Below are positions 18,440-31,790 of a stretch of DNA of 32,549 bases, one piece after another. The stretch's first letter is position 1. Every line of letters begins with the position of its first letter. The stretch comes from Mollicutes bacterium (GTDB lineage Bacteria; Bacillota_I; Bacilli_A; RFN20; CAG-826), in contig JALEXS010000065.1 of the NCBI GenBank assembly GCA_022780025.1, forward strand, positions 1 to 32,549, in the 5' to 3' direction. The translations under genes and the position numbers were made by a program. The notes beneath the pieces are model-generated. The model did no database searches and had not been told where the DNA came from. It saw nothing but the letters and a program-made list of their open reading frames with translations.

Positions 18440-19822
18440 ATGAAAAATAAAATTACAATATTAACGATATTATCTTCTATTTTACCTTTAGTTTCTTGTG
18501 GTAGTAGTGATGTAATTACTTCTAATATTAATAATTTAAGAAATGGATTCTTACTTAGTGGAGAAGTTACTCAAACTAGATATGCTGCTACTGGATATGG
18601 TAATGATCATGGTTATAGTTTTTCTAAAGATACTGAAGAAACTAATAAATATAATGTAAATGTAGGTTTTCAAAGTAATGGTATAAATGCTTATACTAAG
18701 ACAAGTACTCAAGAATTTGATGGTGAAACTTATGTTATTGAAGATTATTTATATTTTGCTGATGAAGAAGGTTTAACTTATAAGAAAGAATTAAATTATC
18801 AAAATAAGATAGATAAAAATTATTCGATTAATTTATCTTCTAGTTCTTTTACTTATAATGGATTTTATAATTTCTTTTCAATTATTGGAAAAGAAGATTT
18901 AATTAAAGATGAAGAATTTAAAGCTTATGATCGATATCAATTAGATATTACTAAAGCTGGAATTATTGCTAATAATCTACTTTATTCATTAAATAGTGGA
19001 TTTGCTAGTAAAGTTAAAGAAGCTTATTTTAGATTAAGTAAAAATAAATTTAGTGAATTTCATATTGAAATGGAACCATATTATTATGCTGATACTTCTA
19101 CTGGTTATTTTTATAAAATATATAATAAAGCTATATTTAATATAACTAAACAAGGTAGTTATAAAGTAGATGATATTACTCCTATTAGTAAGAAAAATAA
19201 TACTAAATTAGAAAAAGCTATTAAAACCATTAATAATAATTTCAAGTTAACTACTGAAATTAATGTTACTGAACAAACTACTAATAAAGTAACTGTTTCA
19301 TATAAAGATTTCTATTTTGATTCAAAATCTATATATGTACATAATTATGATGATAAACTTAAAAGTAATCCTGATCCTTTAACTGATTATTATTTAAGTG
19401 CTGATGATAATGGTAAATTATATTCATATAAATATGATAGTGAATCTAAAACTTATAATAAGTCTGTAACTGATGAATATCCTAGTTTATATCAAGGTAA
19501 ATATTATTATGAAGATTATTTACCTATTATAAGTAATATTAGTAGTGATTTATTTACATTAGATTCTAGTGATAAAAACTTATATATTAATGAAGAAGGT
19601 ACTTCTAGTTGTTTAAATAAATGTTTTTATATACCTTTATCTCCTTATAGAACTGCTGATGCTTTAAATTTTTCCAAATATGAAGTTAAATTAAATGATG
19701 AAAATATAGATTATATTAAATTATATTTTTCTTATCTTAATTATGATGGAGAAATTAGAAGTGGTTATTATAAATTAAATTTTGATAATATTGGAAATAC
19801 TTCTAATCCTGCTACGTTATGA
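18440..19822 (+). CDS. lipoprotein of unknown function (paralog of previous gene)
   Basis: lipobox LVSCGSS; 460 aa; stop overlaps the next start. Confidence 0.75.
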   Translation: MKNKITILTILSSILPLVSCGSSDVITSNINNLRNGFLLSGEVTQTRYAATGYGNDHGYSFSKDTEETNKYNVNVGFQSNGINAYTKTSTQEFDGETYVIEDYLYFADEEGLTYKKELNYQNKIDKNYSINLSSSSFTYNGFYNFFSIIGKEDLIKDEEFKAYDRYQLDITKAGIIANNLLYSLNSGFASKVKEAYFRLSKNKFSEFHIEMEPYYYADTSTGYFYKIYNKAIFNITKQGSYKVDDITPISKKNNTKLEKAIKTINNNFKLTTEINVTEQTTNKVTVSYKDFYFDSKSIYVHNYDDKLKSNPDPLTDYYLSADDNGKLYSYKYDSESKTYNKSVTDEYPSLYQGKYYYEDYLPIISNISSDLFTLDSSDKNLYINEEGTSSCLNKCFYIPLSPYRTADALNFSKYEVKLNDENIDYIKLYFSYLNYDGEIRSGYYKLNFDNIGNTSNPATL

Positions 19823-21516
19823 AATTAAATAGATTGTTTGTTTTATCCTTATCATGTTTAACTTTATTTTCTTGTAATAATAAAGAAAATAATTTTTCTA
19901 ATGACAAAAATGTAGAATTATTATTAAGTGGAAATAAAGGTGGTAATATTAAATTATATAGTAATGAAACATTTCTTGATGAATTTAATGATTTAGAATT
20001 TAATAAAAGTTACCAATTTAAAAAAGGTACTGAAATAAATTTAAAAGTGTCCCAATCTGAAGGATTTTTTATAAATTCAATTAATTATAATGAAGAAAAA
20101 GTTAAAGTTAATAATCAATTTTATACATTTATTTTAAATGAAGATACTAATAAATTAGATATAAAATTCTCATTAATTGAAACTAATATTGACGATTTTA
20201 CTTTTGAATTTAATGAAGAGAACAAAGAAGCTTATATTACAAATTATTCTTCAAATAACACACCTTCTCCTTTGATTATTCCTGAAGAAGTTAAAGGATA
20301 TAAGGTAACTAAAATTAAAGAAACTGCTTTTGATAATACTTCAATTAAAAAAATTAAGTTAGGAAATAATATTAATAATATTGAAGATGGTGCATTTAAA
20401 AACGCTTCTTCATTAACTTATTTTATAACTGATAATAATCAATATTATAAAGCTATTGATGGTATTCTTTATAATAGTGATCAATCAACATTAATATCAG
20501 TTCCAGCTAAATATGAAAATAGTGAATTAATACTAAATTCTAATACTAAATTTATTAATGATTATGCTTTATATACTAATAGAACTATAAAAAATGTAGT
20601 CTTTAATAATTCTTTAGAAAAGATAGGAAAATATGCATTTTATAATGTTAATACTATAGAAGAATTAACTTTTCCTAATAGTTTAATAACTATTGATGAT
20701 TATGCTTTTAAACAAAATACTGTATTAAAAACAATTAACTTTAATCAAAGTCTTCAATATATTAATTCAAATGCATTTTATGGTTGTATTAAAATTAGAA
20801 AATTAGAATTTCCTAATTCATTAAAAGAAATAGGTAATGATGCTTTCTACCATTGTGATTATTTATCAGATATTAAATTTAATGAAGGTTTAATTAAAAT
20901 TGGAGATAGAACTTTTAGTAATTTAACTAGTTTAATTAACATTGAATTCCCTTCTACATTAAAAAGTATTGGCAGTAGCTCATTTTCTGCTTGTTCAAAT
21001 TTAAAAACTATAAACCTTAAGAATATAGAAACTATTGGAAATTATGCTTTTGTTTTATGTAATTCTATAAATAAAATAAATATTCCTAAAACAATTAAAT
21101 CAATTGGTTTTAATCCGTTTTATGGAATATTACATTTAGATCAATCTACATTTACTATTGAAGAAAATGATAATTATGTTATTAATGAAGGCGTACTATT
21201 TTCTAAAGATAGAACTAAACTCATATCTTATCCATATGGTATTACAAATACTAATTATGTTATTCCAAGTTCAGTAACTATTTTAGATAATCAATGCTTT
21301 GCTTTTAATAATAATTTAGCTTCTATAGAGTTACATACTGGTGTTAATAAAATTGATGAAGCATTCTATGGAGTAACTTCTCCTTTAGTTATTAGTTATA
21401 AAGGTACTATTGAAGAATTTAATTCAATTAATAAAGAAGGAAGTAATGGTTATAGTTATTACGAAGGAAGTAGTATAAAAAAGATTAACTGTACCGATGG
21501 TACAATTAATCTTTAA
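19819..21516 (+). CDS. BspA-type leucine-rich-repeat lipoprotein
   Basis: lipobox LFSCNNK; repeats such as LEFPNSLKEIGNDAFYHCDYLSDIKFNEGLIKIGDRTFSNLTSL. Confidence 0.88.
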   Translation: MKLNRLFVLSLSCLTLFSCNNKENNFSNDKNVELLLSGNKGGNIKLYSNETFLDEFNDLEFNKSYQFKKGTEINLKVSQSEGFFINSINYNEEKVKVNNQFYTFILNEDTNKLDIKFSLIETNIDDFTFEFNEENKEAYITNYSSNNTPSPLIIPEEVKGYKVTKIKETAFDNTSIKKIKLGNNINNIEDGAFKNASSLTYFITDNNQYYKAIDGILYNSDQSTLISVPAKYENSELILNSNTKFINDYALYTNRTIKNVVFNNSLEKIGKYAFYNVNTIEELTFPNSLITIDDYAFKQNTVLKTINFNQSLQYINSNAFYGCIKIRKLEFPNSLKEIGNDAFYHCDYLSDIKFNEGLIKIGDRTFSNLTSLINIEFPSTLKSIGSSSFSACSNLKTINLKNIETIGNYAFVLCNSINKINIPKTIKSIGFNPFYGILHLDQSTFTIEENDNYVINEGVLFSKDRTKLISYPYGITNTNYVIPSSVTILDNQCFAFNNNLASIELHTGVNKIDEAFYGVTSPLVISYKGTIEEFNSINKEGSNGYSYYEGSSIKKINCTDGTINL

Positions 21517-21926: not shown

Positions 21927-22922
21927 TTATCTTAATTTATATCTTTGATTCTTTGATGTTTTTTTATCTTTAAATTCAACTTCTATCAATCCTAATTCAA
22001 TTGCAGGATTTAAATAATTCTTTCTAAAATTTACTTTATCAGATAAATTTAATAAACTTAGCATATCTTGGGTTGTATACCATTTATCTTTTTTAAGTAC
22101 TTTTAATAATTTATTAACATATATACTGCTATTTTCTATTTCTAATGAAGTGTTATTAATTAACTCAGTTAAAGATAAATCAATCATTTTTAACATAAAT
22201 GTAACAAAAACTGTAGAATCTCCATTTAGATTAGATTTACTAATTGCATCATAATATTCTAATTGGTATTTCTTTATTAAAGATTCAATTGGAATATATT
22301 TAAAAATTGGTTTCCATTTACTTAATATTAAGTTTTGCCATAATCTAGCCATTCTTCCATTTCCATCACTAAATGGATGAATAAACACAAATTCATAATG
22401 AAAAATTGAAGATAAGATCAAGGGATTCATTTTATTAAAGTTTTCTTTTGCCCAATTAATTAAATTAGACATAAGAATAGGTACCATTTCTTTAGGGGGT
22501 GCTAAAAAAATTAAATTTCCTTTATTATCAATGACTCCTTCTCCACTAATTCTATATTTACCAGAGAGTTCTATTAAATCTTTAGTCATAATAGAATGAA
22601 TAAATTTTAAATTTTTTTCTATAAAAGGATTTTTATCATAAGCAATTTCATAAGCTTTAATAGCGTTTTTTATTTCTTTTATATCTTTAGATGGACCAAT
22701 TACAACTTTATTATTAATTACATCTTCAACTTGATTAATTGTTAAAGAATTAGCTTCTATTGCGCAGCTAGATTGAATAGATCTAATTCTATTTTGCTTT
22801 CTAAGTATTGGAAATCTAGATAAATTATCATAAGATGATATCTTTCCTATTTTTTCCATAATAGAAGAAACATAATCTAATATCTCATTTGTAATAATAA
22901 GAGGTGGTATGTATTTTTCCAT
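21927..22922 (-). CDS. Fic family protein (Fic-1), C-terminal winged-helix-like region
   Basis: Fic motif HPFSDGNGRMAR; N-terminal inhibitory-helix-like SSCAIEAN; C-terminal KWYTTQDMLSLLNLSDKVNFRKNYLNPAIELGLIE; start may be the second Met (22922), ORF-track start 22928. Confidence 0.9.
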   Translation of the reverse strand: MEKYIPPLIITNEILDYVSSIMEKIGKISSYDNLSRFPILRKQNRIRSIQSSCAIEANSLTINQVEDVINNKVVIGPSKDIKEIKNAIKAYEIAYDKNPFIEKNLKFIHSIMTKDLIELSGKYRISGEGVIDNKGNLIFLAPPKEMVPILMSNLINWAKENFNKMNPLILSSIFHYEFVFIHPFSDGNGRMARLWQNLILSKWKPIFKYIPIESLIKKYQLEYYDAISKSNLNGDSTVFVTFMLKMIDLSLTELINNTSLEIENSSIYVNKLLKVLKKDKWYTTQDMLSLLNLSDKVNFRKNYLNPAIELGLIEVEFKDKKTSKNQRYKLR

Positions 22923-22928
22923 ACTCAT

Positions 22929-23050: not shown

Positions 23051-23085
23051 ATTCGCAAAAATTATATTATATTTGCGAAAAGATA
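23051..23085. repeat. 35-bp dispersed repeat, copy 1 (contains TTCGCAAA...TTTGCGAA inverted repeat)
   Basis: ATTCGCAAAAATTATATTATATTTGCGAAAAGATA, identical at 29110-29144; similarity continues to about 23131. Confidence 0.9.
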
Positions 23086-23104
23086 ATTTTTAATTTTAGA
23101 TTAG

Positions 23105-23216
23105 TGCTTAAATAAGCACTTTTATAAAATGCATAGATTGATTTTTTATATTTAAATAGTATAATTAAATTAGATATATTTTATATTTTTGCTTAAATAA
23201 GCACTTTTATAAAATG
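23105..23216 (+). promoter_or_regulatory. DUF4143 ATPase promoter bracketed by perfect 27-bp direct repeats
   Basis: TGCTTAAATAAGCACTTTTATAAAATG at 23105-23131 and 23190-23216; between them TTGATT (23138-23143) N16 TATAAT (23160-23165). Confidence 0.75.
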
Positions 23217-23226
23217 AGGTGAGATT

Positions 23227-24519
23227 ATGGAAATAAAACGTGATTATTATTTAAATCAGTTAATTAGTTCTAAAGGAAACGGAATGATTAAAGTTATAAC
23301 TGGTATTCGTAGATGTGGTAAATCTTATTTACTCAATAATTTGTTTTATAATTATCTTCTTCAAAATAATGTAGATTTTGACCATATTATTAAATTTTCT
23401 TTTGATTCTGCTGAGGACTTAAAAATGATTGGGGAAGACCCTTTCAAATTTAGTGATCCTAATGCAAAAGTCGATCCAAACAAATTTATGCACTATATTA
23501 AGTTAAGATTTAATGATTCTAAAACATACTATCTATTACTTGATGAAATCCAACTTTTAGGTGCTTTTGAATTTGTTTTAAATAGTTATTTAAGACATTC
23601 AAACATTGAAGTATATGTTACAGGTAGTAATGCTAAATTCTTATCAAAGGATATCATTACTGAATTTGCAGGAAGAGGATGGCAAATACACATCTTCCCT
23701 CTTTCATTCAAAGAATATTACGATGCAATTGGTGGAGATAAACTTCAACTTCTTCAACAATATATGTTATATGGAGGACTTCCTGCTTTAATTAACTTTT
23801 CAGATAAAGATAAAATCTCCTATTTAAAAAATCTTTATAAGGAAACTTATATAAAAGATGTTATTAATAGAAATAAGATTGTAGATGAAGCTCCTATGGA
23901 AGCTTTATTAAATACTGTTTCTTCTTCAGTTGGTTGTCTTACTAACCCATCTAAGCTTGAACGAGCTTTTAAAAGTATTGGTAATATTACCTTATCAACA
24001 CCAACAATTTCTAAATATTTAGAATTATTATGTGATGCATTTATTTTAAACGTTGCTAAACGTTATGATATCAAAGGAAAGATGTATATGAGTACTCCAT
24101 TTAAGTACTACTTCACTGATTTAGGTCTAAGAAATGCATCTATTGACTTTAGACAAGTTGAATATACTCATCTACTTGAAAATCTTATTTATATCGAATT
24201 ATTAAGACGTGGATATTCTGTTGATGTAGGTAACATTGAAAAACAAGAAACTATAAATGGCAAATATACTAGATCACAACTTGAAGTTGATTTTGTATGC
24301 AATTTAGGAGATAAACGCCTTTATATACAAGTTGCTTATTCAATCCCTGATGAAGCTAAAATTGCTCAAGAAAAGAAATCACTTCTAACAATAAAAGATA
24401 ATTTTAAGAAGATTATTATAACAATGGATTATCTTCAACACCTACACTATAACAATGATGGAATCCTAATCATGAACATCTATGATTTTCTTTTTGACGA
24501 AAATTCCATTGAATACTAA
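23227..24519 (+). CDS. AAA (AAA_14) ATPase with C-terminal DUF4143 nuclease-like domain
   Basis: VITGIRRCGKSYLL Walker A, YYLLLDEIQLL Walker B, YVTGSNAKFLSKDI, RGWQIHIFPLSFKEY, SQLEVDFVC. Confidence 0.9.
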   Translation: MEIKRDYYLNQLISSKGNGMIKVITGIRRCGKSYLLNNLFYNYLLQNNVDFDHIIKFSFDSAEDLKMIGEDPFKFSDPNAKVDPNKFMHYIKLRFNDSKTYYLLLDEIQLLGAFEFVLNSYLRHSNIEVYVTGSNAKFLSKDIITEFAGRGWQIHIFPLSFKEYYDAIGGDKLQLLQQYMLYGGLPALINFSDKDKISYLKNLYKETYIKDVINRNKIVDEAPMEALLNTVSSSVGCLTNPSKLERAFKSIGNITLSTPTISKYLELLCDAFILNVAKRYDIKGKMYMSTPFKYYFTDLGLRNASIDFRQVEYTHLLENLIYIELLRRGYSVDVGNIEKQETINGKYTRSQLEVDFVCNLGDKRLYIQVAYSIPDEAKIAQEKKSLLTIKDNFKKIIITMDYLQHLHYNNDGILIMNIYDFLFDENSIEY

Positions 24520-24529
24520 TTTAATTTGT

Positions 24530-24563
24530 TAGCTTAAATATGATATCTTTTTAATTTAAGCTA
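24530..24563. terminator. candidate bidirectional hairpin between convergent genes
   Basis: TAGCTTAAAT ... ATTTAAGCTA 10-bp arms; loop contains T-run, but no strong U-run after the stem. Confidence 0.4.
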
Positions 24564-27110
24564 GTCTTGCTTAGTAAAATTAATAACACGCTCTTCTTCA
24601 CCTGTTTCAGATGAATCTAGATACCTTAAGGATAATTCTCCATTTGCTTGGAAATAAAAGCATAATTTATGCATTCCATAATTAATTATACCAGAGTAAG
24701 AACCTTCAGTAATGTAATCAAGTGTAATTGAATATTTCTCAAAATTAATAATTACATCTAGAATATAATCTTTTTCCTTTTTGTTCACTACAACATATGG
24801 AAAATTTATTTTGTCATCATTAATGATTAATTCTACACCATTATAACTATAACGATCTTTTTCCTTTTCAATAGATAAGGTTTTGTCGTTACAAATAATT
24901 TTATCGCAAAATCCACTCTCTAAAAGATAATCTAGACGCCTATTACAAATTATACCAAACTGCTCTAATGTTCCATCAAAATATAATTCTTCTAGATGAT
25001 AATTCTTTTCACTCAGCCTCCCTTCTGGACTAAAGCAAGAAAGTGTATTTGGTAAATGAACTTTCTTTAAAACATTTAAGTTAGGTAATTCTTTGCCTAA
25101 AGAAGTGACTGCACTCAGTTCAAATGATGTTACTTTTTTGCCTAAAATATGAGATGGAACATAAATCTCACTTTCCATTCCTAGATAAGTAAAAAGTCCT
25201 AAATTATTAAAATTATTATCTTTATCTCCAACATAGGAAATTGATTCATAATCTTCAAATATTTTATTTATAGATTGATCTTCGATTATAACTTCATAAC
25301 CATCTCTCTTTAATAATGAAACCCATGAAAAAATTGTTTCATTAACCTTTGTAGATATTTTAATATGTGCTTTCTTGTCAGCTGATCGATAATTAAAATA
25401 TTCTAATGTGGAAGGTAACTCTACTTCTACATTTTTATTTTCAGAATAATAGTCAAATTGAATAATATTTAAATCAAAACGTGTAACGCCTTCGTGGACC
25501 ACAATTTTTTCTATATTATCACAATGGAGTGATACATTATTATTACCATAAGCATTGTTATAAATATCAATGGTTTTAAGACCACTTAAAACACCTTTAA
25601 AATGAGCGTTTTCATTTGATGAATTAAGCGTAATTTTTGATACAATTTCTTCACCATCTTCAATAGTTACGGATTCAAAATCACCTTCTAAAACTAAATG
25701 TTTAATTGAATTATTACCAGCAAAAGACAATATTGCGTCATTAGTAACATTATGAACTTCGAGAAGTTCATAATTATAATTATAAGGACTATTTACAAAA
25801 TAATAGAAAATTCCACTCCTATCATCTTCAATTGGATAGTAATTTAATTTTAAGGTTTTAGCGTTAAGAATGGTCTTTGGGCAAAATGCTTCCCTACATC
25901 CTTTTGAAAAAGAATTAAATTTTAATAAATCTAGTTCTGTAACTTTTTGATCCATTATATATAGAAGTGCTGTTCCATCATAACTTGTTAAAAATGGTCC
26001 TTCAGTTTTAAAAAATGTAGAACCTGTTTCTATTTCAATTTTTTCTAAATAAATAAATTCTTTACCATTATTATCAACAACAAGACTTAAATTACTTACA
26101 TCAGTTATATTTCCGTATTTGTCTTTAACACCAATGACAGATTTAGGAATATAAAGTTCTTTTACGATAGTTTTTCCTACTATGCGAATAGAAAAGTGTT
26201 CTGTTAAATATTTGATGTTATTAGGGATTACTACTCTTTCTTCATCTTTAGCAACATACATTTCAGCAACGCCATTATGTTCTAAGATTCCGAGAGTTTC
26301 AACACCAGCATTGCTCCCTGGCCATAATCTATTTATAATTTCTTGAGCTTCATGTTCTGAAATTACAAATTGTGAATCTCTTTCTAAAACTCTAAAATCT
26401 TCCTTATTAATGATTTCAAAACCATTTTTGATTTTTTCACGAACTCCGCCAATCAATGTTTTATTTCTATAAATTCGATCTGCTAAATGCGCATTATGAT
26501 AACGAATTTCATATGATTCAGTTGTTTTATAATATTCAATAAAAGTTAATGTACTATCGCCATAAAAAGCCCATTCTGTATTTCCTGAGTCAGTAATTTG
26601 AAACCCACTAAAAGTATAATCATTTTCATTATTATAAGTGACATCAAAATACATATAATATGTGTCATTATCAAAGCCTAAATTACTAGGAATATAAATA
26701 TAAGTTGATGTTTCATTTCCATTATTAGTTACTTTCACGTAACCATCATCTTTATAGCGAGTAATTACATTATAGAAATTAGATTGTTTTCTATACTTTA
26801 CTAATCCATCTCCAACAATTACTGGAATATACATGGATTGTTCAAATGCATTAGCGATATCAATTCCGGTTTGAATATAATCACCACTATTATTGAGCAT
26901 ATCAATAATTTCGTTTTTATTTTCAAAAGAACGTTTCTCTCTTTTAATATTCTTTCTCGATCTTTGTTGATTATCATTTTGAATAAAATCCTTAAAGATT
27001 TGATTCATTTTAGCTGAAAATTCTTCATATTCTTTATTTTTTAATCCACCACAAGAAGATAGAAGCATAACAAATAAAGCATTAAATATTATGGCATGTT
27101 TTAATTTCAT
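24561..27110 (-). CDS. large lipoprotein with degenerate LRR (BspA-like) repeats
   Basis: MKLKHAIIFNALFVMLLSSCGG lipobox; segments such as NNIKYLTEHFSIRIVGKTIVKELYIPKSVIGV and NLNVLKKVHLPNTLSCF; start moved to ATG with AGGGAG SD. Confidence 0.72.
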   Translation of the reverse strand: MKLKHAIIFNALFVMLLSSCGGLKNKEYEEFSAKMNQIFKDFIQNDNQQRSRKNIKREKRSFENKNEIIDMLNNSGDYIQTGIDIANAFEQSMYIPVIVGDGLVKYRKQSNFYNVITRYKDDGYVKVTNNGNETSTYIYIPSNLGFDNDTYYMYFDVTYNNENDYTFSGFQITDSGNTEWAFYGDSTLTFIEYYKTTESYEIRYHNAHLADRIYRNKTLIGGVREKIKNGFEIINKEDFRVLERDSQFVISEHEAQEIINRLWPGSNAGVETLGILEHNGVAEMYVAKDEERVVIPNNIKYLTEHFSIRIVGKTIVKELYIPKSVIGVKDKYGNITDVSNLSLVVDNNGKEFIYLEKIEIETGSTFFKTEGPFLTSYDGTALLYIMDQKVTELDLLKFNSFSKGCREAFCPKTILNAKTLKLNYYPIEDDRSGIFYYFVNSPYNYNYELLEVHNVTNDAILSFAGNNSIKHLVLEGDFESVTIEDGEEIVSKITLNSSNENAHFKGVLSGLKTIDIYNNAYGNNNVSLHCDNIEKIVVHEGVTRFDLNIIQFDYYSENKNVEVELPSTLEYFNYRSADKKAHIKISTKVNETIFSWVSLLKRDGYEVIIEDQSINKIFEDYESISYVGDKDNNFNNLGLFTYLGMESEIYVPSHILGKKVTSFELSAVTSLGKELPNLNVLKKVHLPNTLSCFSPEGRLSEKNYHLEELYFDGTLEQFGIICNRRLDYLLESGFCDKIICNDKTLSIEKEKDRYSYNGVELIINDDKINFPYVVVNKKEKDYILDVIINFEKYSITLDYITEGSYSGIINYGMHKLCFYFQANGELSLRYLDSSETGEEERVINFTKQD

Positions 27111-27372
27111 AGTATTTCTCCCTAGCATTAACTTTTCTTAAGCTAATTGAATGATAACATGAATTGGAAGTTTTTGCTCTAAGTTATAATAAAAAGATTA
27201 AAATTTCGGACATTATTTGACAGGATCATTGCAATAAAGGATATTTTAAGCAACAAATTCACCCTTAACGATTCACATTAGTGAAAAAATTCTGTGTAGA
27301 AAAGTAAAAAACGTGTCCTCTAGTGCATCAAATAATTCGCCAAGTAACAATACTATCTAGCTCTTTTTATTT

Positions 27373-27454
27373 TTCGCAAAAGTTATATAGTTTTTGCGAA
27401 TTTTTTTCATTTTAAATTGATATTTCTTCCTAAAAGTTATATAAAAATTGCGAA
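27373..27454 (+). promoter_or_regulatory. two 28-bp operator-like elements around the abiE promoter
   Basis: TTCGCAAAAGTTATATAGTTTTTGCGAA (27373-27400) and TTCCTAAAAGTTATATAAAAATTGCGAA (27427-27454); TTGATA (27417-27422) N17 TATAAA (27440-27445). Confidence 0.75.
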
Positions 27455-27466
27455 GAGGTGTTATTT

Positions 27467-28069
27467 ATGTGTACTAGAAATTTAATATATGAACGCATTA
27501 CAAATTCATCATTTAAGGCTTTTACATCAGCTGATTTTTTAGATTTAGATAATTATAAGAATATTAGTAAAGCTTTAGAAACATTAGAAGATACTGGTTT
27601 TTTATCTCGTGCAAAACGCGGTATTTATTATCAATATAAAAAAAATGAACTGTTTGGATTTATTGAACCACCAAACATTGATGAGGTAGCTAAAGCAATT
27701 GCAAGACAATATAATTACAATATTGTTCCTTCTTCTAACCATGCTTTAAATATCATTGGTATTTCTACACAAGTTCCATCTTCTTATACTTACATAACTG
27801 ATGGTCCTTATAATGAATATCAAATTGGAAAAATTACAATCAAATTTAAACATGCAACTTCTAAAGAAATTAATGGTTTAAGATATAAAAATCTTATTGC
27901 TATTCAAGCTATTAAAGCATTAGGTAAAGAAAATATTACTGATGATATTAAGTTAAAAATACTTAACTTCTTAGATGAAGATGATATTTCAGAAATTAAG
28001 AATAATACAATTAAAATCACTGCTTGGATTTATGATTTATTTAAATCTATTATTGGAGATAAAAACTAA
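27467..28069 (+). CDS. AbiEi-type antitoxin/regulator (DUF6088-like)
   Basis: N-terminal winged-helix region FTSADFLDLDNYKNISKALETLEDTGFLSRAKRGIYY; directly followed by AbiEii NTase; start moved from GTG 27458 to ATG 27467 after SD GAAGAGGTG. Confidence 0.82.
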   Translation: MCTRNLIYERITNSSFKAFTSADFLDLDNYKNISKALETLEDTGFLSRAKRGIYYQYKKNELFGFIEPPNIDEVAKAIARQYNYNIVPSSNHALNIIGISTQVPSSYTYITDGPYNEYQIGKITIKFKHATSKEINGLRYKNLIAIQAIKALGKENITDDIKLKILNFLDEDDISEIKNNTIKITAWIYDLFKSIIGDKN

Positions 28070-29073
28070 TGTATAACATTGCCAACTTATCTAATAAAGA
28101 TAGAAATGCTCTATTTTCTAAATATGAAAATGACTTTGGAATAAATAAAGCTATCGTTGAAAAAGATTTTTGGGTTACTTTCCTTTTAGACTATTTGTTT
28201 CACAAATCAAAATTTAAGGACTATTTTATCTTTAAAGGTGGTACTTCCCTTTCAAAATGCTTTAATCTAATTTCTAGATTTTCTGAAGATATTGATCTTA
28301 TATTAAAATGGAATTATCTAACAGATGATGATCCTAACAATGAACGTTCTAACACTAAACAATTAAAATACAATGAAGAAATCAATCGTTTAGCTTAAGA
28401 ATTCTTAAAGAACGAATTCGTTCCTACTTTAAGCAATGAGCTAAAAGAATTAATTAATGATGATTTCAAACTTGAAATTAATCCGCTTGAACCCCAAACT
28501 GTGAATTTTTCCTACCCAAGACTTTTTAATGCTAGTGATGCCAGAATATTACAATACATCAAACTTGAAATTGGTCCACTAGCTGCTTTAACTCCAACAG
28601 AGATTACTACTATTTCTCCCCTAATAAAGGATTTAAATCTTCCTTTATTAACTTATGATTCAACTTCTATTGAAACAGTAAGCGTAATTAGAACATTTTG
28701 GGAAAAAGTTACAAGATTGCACCAAGAAGCTCATCGACCAGAAACCACTCAAATGCCTTCTAGATATTCTAGGCATTACTACGACATCTATTGCATAGGT
28801 CATTCTAAGTACAAAGATTTAGCACTTGCTGATCTAAAGTTACTTAAAACCGTAGCGTCATTTAAGAAAAAATTCTATCCTAGAAATTGGGCAAAATATG
28901 ATGAAGCATACCCTACAACTCTCAAACTTTTACCTCCAAAATATAGATATAAAGATTTAGAGGATGATTATATAAGTATGCAGGAAATGATTTACAAAGG
29001 TGCACCAACTTTTTCTGAAATAATGAATTATATCAAACAACTTGAGAATGAAATTAATTCTCTAATTAAATAA
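28069..29073 (+). pseudogene. AbiEii/AbiGii-type nucleotidyltransferase toxin interrupted by one in-frame TAA
   Basis: KGGTSLSKCFNLISRFSEDIDLI NTase motif; TAA at 28396-28398; same frame continues EFLKNEFVPTLSNELKELINDDFKLEINPLEPQTVNFSYPRLF... to 29073 with no other stop. Confidence 0.88.
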
Positions 29074-29109
29074 CTATTTAGATTAGAGTCCTTATTTAGG
29101 GCTCTTTTC

Positions 29110-29144
29110 ATTCGCAAAAATTATATTATATTTGCGAAAAGATA
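29110..29144. repeat. 35-bp dispersed repeat, copy 2
   Basis: identical to 23051-23085; similarity extends with TGCTTAAATTAGCCTTGTTCTAAAATG (22/27 match to the DUF4143 operator repeat). Confidence 0.9.
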
Positions 29145-29189
29145 TTTTTTATTTTAGACCAATGCTTAAATTAGCCTTGTTCTAAAATG

Positions 29190-29420
29190 ATAAGGTCATA
29201 ATAAATAGTATCAATTAAGTCATCGCGAAACTGAAATATATTAACATGGATAATTTTATTATTTGATAAGTTACTTTGTTCAATAATCGGCAATGTAACT
29301 GATATTCCCTTAATTACTTAACGTCTAAACAATTTAAGGAACTAGTTTTCCACTTAAATTAACAAAAGTGTCTGCTTTCTATTGACCCGTTCAAAAAGAC
29401 CACCAATTAAGGCAGTCCTA
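29190..29420 (-). pseudogene. possible relic of a type I restriction specificity subunit (hsdS)
   Basis: minus-strand fragments GGLFERVNRK and, in another frame, ISVTLPIIEQ...NIFQFRDDLI resembling HsdS conserved regions; interrupted by stops. Confidence 0.25.
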
Positions 29421-29440: not shown

Positions 29441-30490
29441 TTATCTTTTATAAATATACCTAGTATTACGAGCAGTTCCAATTTTTTCAACAACTCCGCT
29501 TTTTACAAGCTTCCCTAAAACACTCTCAATAGTAGTGACGCTTACATCTGGTAATACTTTATATATATCTGCTTTAGATAATGGAGTAATGCTGTTTTTC
29601 AATGTTTCTTCAATACGATTTGTCTTGGATAGTTTCTTACCATTGACAACACAGAATCTCATATCTAGTTCTCTATAGCAACGAAGAAGCGTAAATATAA
29701 AGTTCTCTGCAAAAGCAAAATAATCATTTTCGTTAAGCTCCCATCCCTTTGATGAGATTCTTAGTGCTTCATAGTAAAGATCTTTATATTTATTGATCTG
29801 TTCCTCGTACGAAATATATTTAACTACGTCATATCCTTCTTTATATAAAAGCAATAAAGATAAAAGTCTACTCATTCTACCATTTCCATCAGAGAAAGGA
29901 TGTATACACAAAAAATCTAAAATAACACATGGGATAAGCAATAATGAATTGATGCCATAATCTTGTTTTGCTGATAAATAGGCGAGATAAAGTTGCTCCA
30001 TAGCTTTTGGTGTTTCTGCTGCTGGTGTCGGACGAAAACGAACGCTTCTATTACCATATGCATCAATTTCTAATATAACATTATCCGTTTCTTTGTATTT
30101 TCCACCATACTGATAGTTTGTATATGAGAGCAACATTGAGTGAAGGGACAATATAGTATTCTCTGAAAAATCTAATGTTTTATAATTCAAGTGTATTAGA
30201 TTGAGCGCATCTCTATAACCTGCAATCTCGGCTTCGTCATGATTTAAAGGCGCACTACTTTTATTAACGATATCTTGTATTCTGCTGTCGCTAGTTATTA
30301 TACCTTCAATAGCATTTGAACTTTTAACTGACTGTACCTTTGCTATCTTTTCTAATTCATTAAATGCATCAGTGTAGATTCTTTGTCTATCCAATGCTTT
30401 ATTTTTCAATTCTCCAATAGACAATGATAACGTGATAAATTTAGATGGTATGTTGGCATTTTTTAAAAACGAATAATCAAACTTATGCAT
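29441..30490 (-). CDS. Fic family protein (Fic-2), C-terminal winged-helix region
   Basis: HPFSDGNGRMSR; inhibitory-type SNAIEG; C-terminal LSKADIYKVLPDVSVTTIESVLGKLVKSGVVEKIG; AGGAGG SD. Confidence 0.93.
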   Translation of the reverse strand: MHKFDYSFLKNANIPSKFITLSLSIGELKNKALDRQRIYTDAFNELEKIAKVQSVKSSNAIEGIITSDSRIQDIVNKSSAPLNHDEAEIAGYRDALNLIHLNYKTLDFSENTILSLHSMLLSYTNYQYGGKYKETDNVILEIDAYGNRSVRFRPTPAAETPKAMEQLYLAYLSAKQDYGINSLLLIPCVILDFLCIHPFSDGNGRMSRLLSLLLLYKEGYDVVKYISYEEQINKYKDLYYEALRISSKGWELNENDYFAFAENFIFTLLRCYRELDMRFCVVNGKKLSKTNRIEETLKNSITPLSKADIYKVLPDVSVTTIESVLGKLVKSGVVEKIGTARNTRYIYKR

Positions 30491-30768: not shown

Positions 30769-31698
30769 TTACAAATCAGCGTTAAGCAAAAATAAATAAT
30801 TATCCTCAGATTCTTCAACCAAATTTTTTATTATTTGTATAAAGTCTGAATAATCATATGTAGTATGAGCTTTGTCTAAAGCATCATAATATTCAACTCT
30901 ATTTTCATTTTTAATTACTACAGGAGGATATCCATTTTTGATTAACTCAAAATTAAGTAAAAGCCTTGCTGTTCTTCCGTTGCCATCAACAAAAGGATGA
31001 ATTTTCACAAATTCACCATGAAGATAACATGCTCTTATGATAGGATGCAAATTTTCCCATTTTTTATAATTTTCCATTAATTTTTGCATTTCAAATGGCA
31101 CATTTAGATAAATTGGTGGAACATGTTTTGCACCACTAATAAATACATTCTCTTGACGATATTTACCAGCATTATGATTATCTATTTCTTTTAGTATTAA
31201 GTAATGGATTGCTTTTATATTATATTCGGTTATAGAATCATTTTTTGAAACAAGGTCTTCAATAAAATCGATTGCTTCTTTATGATTTATGGCTTCTAAA
31301 TGGTCTTTTAAAGGTTTTCCCTTAATTGTAATTCCATTTTCTAAAACAACCTTTGTTTCAGAAAGAGTTAAGGTGTTACCTTCAATTGCATTTGAATTAT
31401 AAGTCCATTCAATAACTAACTTATTTTTAAATTGCTCCTTCATTAAATTTGAAAAAGGCCTAAATGAGTTTATTAAATCTTTTTTCTTATCAATTAGGTT
31501 AAAATCGATAGCGTTATAAAAAATCTTTTCAGTATTTTTGTATCTTTTATCTATTGGTTTTGTTGCATCTATTGGTATTAACCAAGTTTTGCCTACTTTG
31601 ATTGCTCCCTCAATTCTACCTTCTGAACATAGAGTGCGTATTCTTCTTTCGTTTATTCCCCATTTTTCTACAAAATATTTTATTAACTTAAATTCCAA
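30769..31698 (-). CDS. HTH-Fic fusion protein (Fic-3)
   Basis: N-terminal MerR/excisionase-like HTH INERRIRTLCSEGRIEGAIKVGKTWLIP; SNAIEGN; HPFVDGNGRTAR; start moved to TTG at 31698 after SD GAGGTG because the ORF-track ATG overlaps the -35 box. Confidence 0.88.
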   Translation of the reverse strand: MEFKLIKYFVEKWGINERRIRTLCSEGRIEGAIKVGKTWLIPIDATKPIDKRYKNTEKIFYNAIDFNLIDKKKDLINSFRPFSNLMKEQFKNKLVIEWTYNSNAIEGNTLTLSETKVVLENGITIKGKPLKDHLEAINHKEAIDFIEDLVSKNDSITEYNIKAIHYLILKEIDNHNAGKYRQENVFISGAKHVPPIYLNVPFEMQKLMENYKKWENLHPIIRACYLHGEFVKIHPFVDGNGRTARLLLNFELIKNGYPPVVIKNENRVEYYDALDKAHTTYDYSDFIQIIKNLVEESEDNYLFLLNADL

Positions 31699-31719
31699 TT
31701 TAAATTCACCTCTTTTATT

Positions 31720-31790
31720 CCGTAATCGGCACAATGATATTATAAGTAAATCTACGTAATAAGTCAATACACTGCCGTTATCGGCATAAT
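31720..31790 (-). promoter_or_regulatory. fic-3 promoter flanked by two operator copies
   Basis: minus strand TTGACT (31762-31767) N17 TATAAT (31739-31744); CCGTAATCGGCACAAT 31720-31735 and CCGTTATCGGCATAAT 31775-31790. Confidence 0.75.

Follow-up and report, generated by a model that had tools for sequence, protein, structure and literature searches.

Looping repressors such as those of the lac, gal and ara systems use two operators placed on the same face of the DNA helix, with the promoter between or beside them. In AbiE systems, autorepression by the antitoxin AbiEi through inverted repeats in the promoter has been established elsewhere (PMC3985639, PMC7319586); in S. agalactiae (AbiEi) and M. 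tuberculosis (Rv2827c), an antitoxin gene is followed by a nucleotidyltransferase toxin gene, and the inverted repeats overlap the promoter and vary between homologues. PDC-S01, an ATPase fused to a PD-(D/E)XK-like domain, is a candidate single-gene phage defence, and most PDCs await validation (PMC12988326). The window, by which we mean the whole stretch of 32,549 nucleotides analyzed here, carries an AbiE operon and a gene of the PDC-S01 family, together with a DNA repeat found ahead of the latter and behind the former.

The PDC-S01 family gene (23227..24519, plus strand) encodes an AAA_14-DUF4143 ATPase of 430 aa that comprises an ATPase domain, a winged helix, and a PD-(D/E)XK-like domain. 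It matches the PADLOC PDC-S01 model (1.8e-115) in both profile and ATPase plus PD-(D/E)XK-like architecture, but it differs from the described family in that its subfamily is devoid of the catalytic lysine, and in that the literature searched, which included few subscription papers, yielded no description of upstream control elements for DUF4143 genes. The AbiE operon begins with a DUF6088 antitoxin gene of the AbiEi type (27458..28069, plus strand; its start may be the ATG at 27467), which matches DUF6088 (4.5e-37) and the PADLOC AbiEi model (1.1e-52) and directly precedes the frame of an AbiEii-type nucleotidyltransferase toxin (28069..29073, plus strand), overlapping it at 28069. As in the known AbiE systems, inverted repeats lie in the promoter region (27373-27400 and 27432-27454), and their placement is conserved in relatives. 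Unlike in those systems, the antitoxin belongs to the DUF6088 subgroup and is associated with a compact 28-bp palindrome, two extra palindromes are located away from the abiE promoter, and an in-frame TAA at 28396-28398 disrupts the toxin frame. AbiEii matches were obtained on both sides of this codon, with 28069-28398 and 28501-29073 in the same reading frame; no intact toxin gene is thus present in the assembly, and the TAA could mark a genuine pseudogene or stem from faulty assembly of the fragmented genome. Because the frame is broken, the AbiE system may be inactive here. A terminator-like hairpin (29085..29105, plus strand) follows the operon. The interval also holds a putative lipoprotein gene (24561..27128, minus strand) with no evident role, for which Pfam and NCBIfam gave no match. 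Two other large predicted lipoproteins are encoded at 18440-21516, and three genes with Fic domains, each on the minus strand, are found near the segment (21927-22928, 29441-30490, and 30769-31767); two of them were scanned, and both match PADLOC SoFic.

The repeat consists of copies at 23051..23131 and 29110..29190, both on the plus strand. As reported in the initial annotation, the same 35 bp are present at 23051-23085 and at 29110-29144; the further claim that similarity continues beyond this stretch was borne out by blastn, which aligned the two copies over 81 bp at 87.7% identity (E about 1e-21), and the count of 22/27 given for TGCTTAAATWAGC...TAAAATG is correct. Gapped local alignment carries the resemblance, more weakly and with small gaps, to about 23169 and 29219. 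What had been overlooked is that TGCTTAAATAAGCACTTTTATAAAATG is present twice, perfectly, upstream of the DUF4143 gene, at 23105 and again at 23190. Since this second part of the repeat occurs twice before the DUF4143 gene, the repeat combines two distinct elements, namely, an AbiEi-type palindrome and the distal member of a pair of DUF4143 elements. The first copy belongs to the control region of the DUF4143 gene, and the second is a truncated version of that region.

Within the control region, the distal element (23093..23131, plus strand) is a nested palindrome of about 39 bp around GTGCTTAAATAAGCAC. The proximal copy (23178..23216, plus strand) lies 85 bp from it and ends 10 bp before the start codon, and the predicted promoter TTGATT-16-TATAAT (23138..23165, plus strand; -35 at 23138 and -10 at 23160) falls between the two. 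The element is private to this gene, as the genome holds only 2 copies within 3 mismatches, both upstream of the DUF4143 gene. A spacing of 85 bp, close to eight helical turns, would put the elements on one face of the helix with the promoter in between, as in the lac, gal and ara systems. Unlike in those systems, the presumed repressor would be a STAND/AAA-like ATPase, and the operator sequence is own to each gene or gene group.

The same layout recurs at other DUF4143 genes. The genome itself encodes 12 DUF4143 matches, most of which have their own, differing upstream repeats. A set of 115 DUF4143 genes (PADLOC PDC-S01 family) was then drawn from the order, with 87 other genes of the same loci as controls. 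Upstream repeat scores reached a median of 27.6 in the DUF4143 genes versus 13.4 in shuffles, and a repeat-pair score above 30 was obtained for 46% of the 115 genes versus 0/87 controls, the percentage being approximate because a few loci overlap or are duplicated and gene starts were placed from an alignment. By this score, roughly half of the DUF4143 set is without a pair, a class in which diverged copies, wrong starts, and true absence are not separated. Element sequences differ between DUF4143 gene groups and are palindromic (median score of 9.9 versus 6.1 in shuffles). The proximal copy typically ends about 10 bp ahead of the start codon, and in 32 of 46 genes the best promoter within 220 bp is located between the copies, with its -10 box a few bases before the proximal one. 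Copy-to-copy spacings cluster at 52-53, 64-66, 73-76, and 84-86 bp. With one gene retained per 60% protein-identity cluster, the resulting 22 spacings gave R(10.5 bp)=0.51 (p=0.003 versus uniform spacings), and a 70% identity cut gave p<=0.0002 against the same expectation. The best-fitting period was between 10.0 and 10.2, and the data therefore support helical phasing with the period itself left loose. On both counts, the 85 bp in the window and the phasing across the family, the copies are arranged as expected for a looping operator pair on one helix face.

An independent set of viral contigs showed the same tendency: an alignment query found 32 DUF4143 loci, and 13/30 DUF4143 genes, some of them near-duplicates, scored above 26 versus 0/60 coding windows. 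Single-protein queries of the viral contigs found no close relatives of either window protein. Isolate plasmid records also include a DUF4143 element pair, with a spacing of 76 bp, in Prevotella nigrescens. In one tiny plasmid record from this species (L294, NZ_CP133466.1), a circle of 2630 bp, the DUF4143 gene and its repeat pair are accompanied by a single other gene; the record may represent a real replicon or an assembly product. In a distant DUF4143 subfamily (L004, L005, L007, L357, L358, and L365), we observed tandem direct repeats with a period of about 23 or 32 bp and no spaced pairs, and a phylum-wide sample contained few DUF4143 genes, mostly of another subfamily.

Palindromic elements could also be RNA structures in the leader, acting as an attenuator or riboregulator, and the proximal copy does lie inside the predicted leader. 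However, the distal copy is upstream of the -35 box and would not be transcribed from that promoter, and the spacings follow the DNA helix, making this explanation highly improbable. The recurrence of a private site pair around the promoter in many DUF4143 genes suggests instead that each protein switches its own gene.

Which part of the protein might read the element was approached by comparing element and protein similarity. Element similarity between genes tracks protein similarity modestly (rho 0.26). With overall identity controlled, the relation was strongest in the nuclease-like domain, at residues 331-360 (partial r=0.27, p=0.002, 56 genes), the best of several regions tried, so that the p value is uncorrected for this choice; the ATPase domain did not track element similarity (partial r=-0.11). 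The element could not be predicted from the recognition helix of the winged helix by itself. An AlphaFold2 model of the window protein (pLDDT 89, pTM 0.90) displays the ATPase, winged helix, and PD-(D/E)XK-like domains, and its best PDB matches include SSO1545 (2fna), CED-4, Apaf-1, and Orc1/Cdc6; our search found no solved structure of a sequence relative of either window protein. Nearly all DUF4143 sequences (111-112 of 112) retain the Walker lysine and acids. In the nuclease-like domain, the acidic residues are kept and residue 368 is Q, while the position of the nuclease lysine (residue 370) is occupied by A, S, V, C, or T and never by K in all 109 sequences with a residue there, whereas in Bacteroidota relatives an E-x-K lies at an equal distance from the aspartate. 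The absence of this lysine from the subfamily suggests that the PD-(D/E)XK-like domain may read rather than cut DNA.

The second copy of the repeat starts right after the terminator-like hairpin of the abiE operon. It contains an unchanged palindrome and a diverged single DUF4143 element (29151..29190, plus strand), its -10 box reads TATCAAT, and the proximal element is missing. A search for a DUF4143 coding remnant behind 29190 returned no convincing candidate up to 29460. The best reading of 29110-29219 is that it represents a truncated duplicate of the DUF4143 control region in which the promoter and proximal element are gone. Among the three ideas put forward in the initial annotation, a duplicated DUF4143 upstream region is the best: both the DUF4143 element in common and the damage to the promoter within 29110-29219 speak for the duplication, while the second gene may have been lost, as was proposed, or may never have been there.

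Another of these ideas took the repeats as ends of a mobile or recombining 6.1-kb module. Direct repeats do flank the DUF4143-lipoprotein-AbiE segment, their 35-bp identity could support deletion by recombination, and 3 of 55 tested DUF4143 genes (L014, L217, and L277) have an extra copy of their own upstream element right behind the gene, at most about 65 bases past the stop codon. Such downstream copies are rare, however, the anatomy of the repeat is that of a control region, and neither the open reading frames nor Pfam matches of the interval include a recombinase or transposase. None of the genus-mates searched keeps both flanks together, so that an empty site could not have shown up among them. 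We find module boundaries unsupported and very unlikely to account for the repeat, and retain the truncated duplicate.

The first half of the repeat carries the palindrome TTCGCAAA-N12-TTTGCGAA. It was correctly stated before that the site at 27373 shares the palindrome word: exact 8-bp arms occur in the window at 23052, 27373, and 29111, with 0 expected from shuffles. The copies at 23052..23079 and 29111..29138 are identical in sequence, and that in the abiE promoter region (27373..27400) has 3 mismatches to the pattern built from the other two. Throughout the 1.43 Mb genome, the palindrome is found at these three sites only, even with 3 mismatches allowed, so that the repeat does not belong to a general repeat family within its own genome, an outcome that would have spoken against the ideas discussed here. 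Next to the abiEi start lies a degenerate second operator, AAAAGTTATATAAAAATTGCGAA (27432..27454, plus strand); several relatives have two tandem palindromes at the matching position before abiEi.

The closest DUF6088 homologues in relatives carry the same palindrome at their promoter, often doubled in tandem. It is a tandem double in G085 and G249, one exact plus one degenerate copy in G057, and a single copy in G211. A scan of named genomes, in which gene tallies are lower bounds, placed it, among the matches listed, at DUF6088 genes of L083, L092, L099, L120, L124, and L134, of which L120 is the G085 locus again and L099 shares the doubled operator of G249. In DUF6088 genes further removed, other arms stand in the same place. 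Because the palindrome occurs at DUF6088 promoters, matches one G085 operator at 27 of 28 positions at 23052, and resembles in its setting the sites of AbiEi autorepression known elsewhere, we read it as an AbiEi-type operator of the DUF6088 subgroup and a candidate binding site. A 26-bp TTCGCAAA...TTTGCGAA palindrome was also seen near ParA/ParB-like genes (L017, G094:C10:34531-34556), with no AbiE or DUF4143 gene nearby in the fetched locus.

If AbiEi binds at 27373, 23052, and 29111, it may co-repress the DUF4143 gene, and loss of AbiEi would release both. The confinement of the only three such palindromes of the genome to this locus argues for this shared regulon, as does the near identity of the 23052 site to a DUF6088 operator. 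Moreover, the palindrome half of the repeat shows 0 changes while the remaining 46-47 columns contain 8-10 (Fisher p 0.004-0.018), which lends weak support to continued use of the palindrome in the second copy, but this conservation could also stem from recent duplication or chance. Further, some 150 bp separate the 23052 palindrome from the DUF4143 start downstream, so that the site falls outside the predicted promoter, and at other loci with both genes no palindrome of this type was seen at the DUF4143 gene. We hold joint control by AbiEi to be plausible, though somewhat less likely than not; it is compatible with self-regulation by DUF4143, to which it would be an addition.

Among the matches listed, similar palindromes also stand at DUF4143 starts in L112, L119, L122, L126, L135, L150, L172, L181, and L192, mostly from Bacteroidota where the organism is given, and the fetched loci contain no DUF6088 gene. 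Given these TTCGCAAA palindromes, which lie directly at the Bacteroidota DUF4143 starts and in one case as two copies 32 bp apart, the palindromes at 23052 and 29111 could themselves be DUF4143 sites whose likeness to the DUF6088 operator arose by convergence. This is unlikely, as the centre of the 23052 site matches DUF6088 operators better than the Bacteroidota sites, the DUF4143 proteins concerned are only about 21-27% identical, and the third site, at 27373, lies in the abiE promoter. We accordingly keep the palindrome as an AbiEi-type operator.

Judged from sequence, it is likely that the DUF4143 protein binds both of the private elements flanking its promoter and represses its own gene, and that this arrangement was duplicated in truncated form at 29110. 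The region before the DUF4143 gene would act as a control region in which two nested palindromes of about 39 bp are most likely bound by the DUF4143 protein itself, as a dimer or larger oligomer, and the bound protein would repress the gene by covering or, more probably, looping the promoter. The single DUF6088/AbiEi operator in front of the DUF4143 elements may add control by AbiEi. As for the order of events, we infer that the 29110-29219 duplicate kept the AbiEi palindrome and one diverged element, while the gene disappeared along with the proximal element and a functional promoter. A bolder extension, which we consider distinctly unlikely, is that DUF4143/PDC-S01 proteins are self-addressed STAND-like ATPases parked on private operators, where a disturbance, such as phage interference with host DNA or transcription, would lead to both expression and ATPase activation, the operator thereby serving as a defence sensor.

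The DUF4143 family is very common and uncharacterised, and its private, helically phased operator pairs are what makes it of interest here. A private DNA element for each gene offers a cognate ligand that can be tested at once, and it would account for the coexistence of a dozen paralogues in a single small genome with no cross-talk among them. Such elements suggest self-control at the level of transcription, with the nuclease-like domain reading the DNA, and if AbiEi also controls the neighbouring DUF4143 gene, one antitoxin would wire two defence genes.
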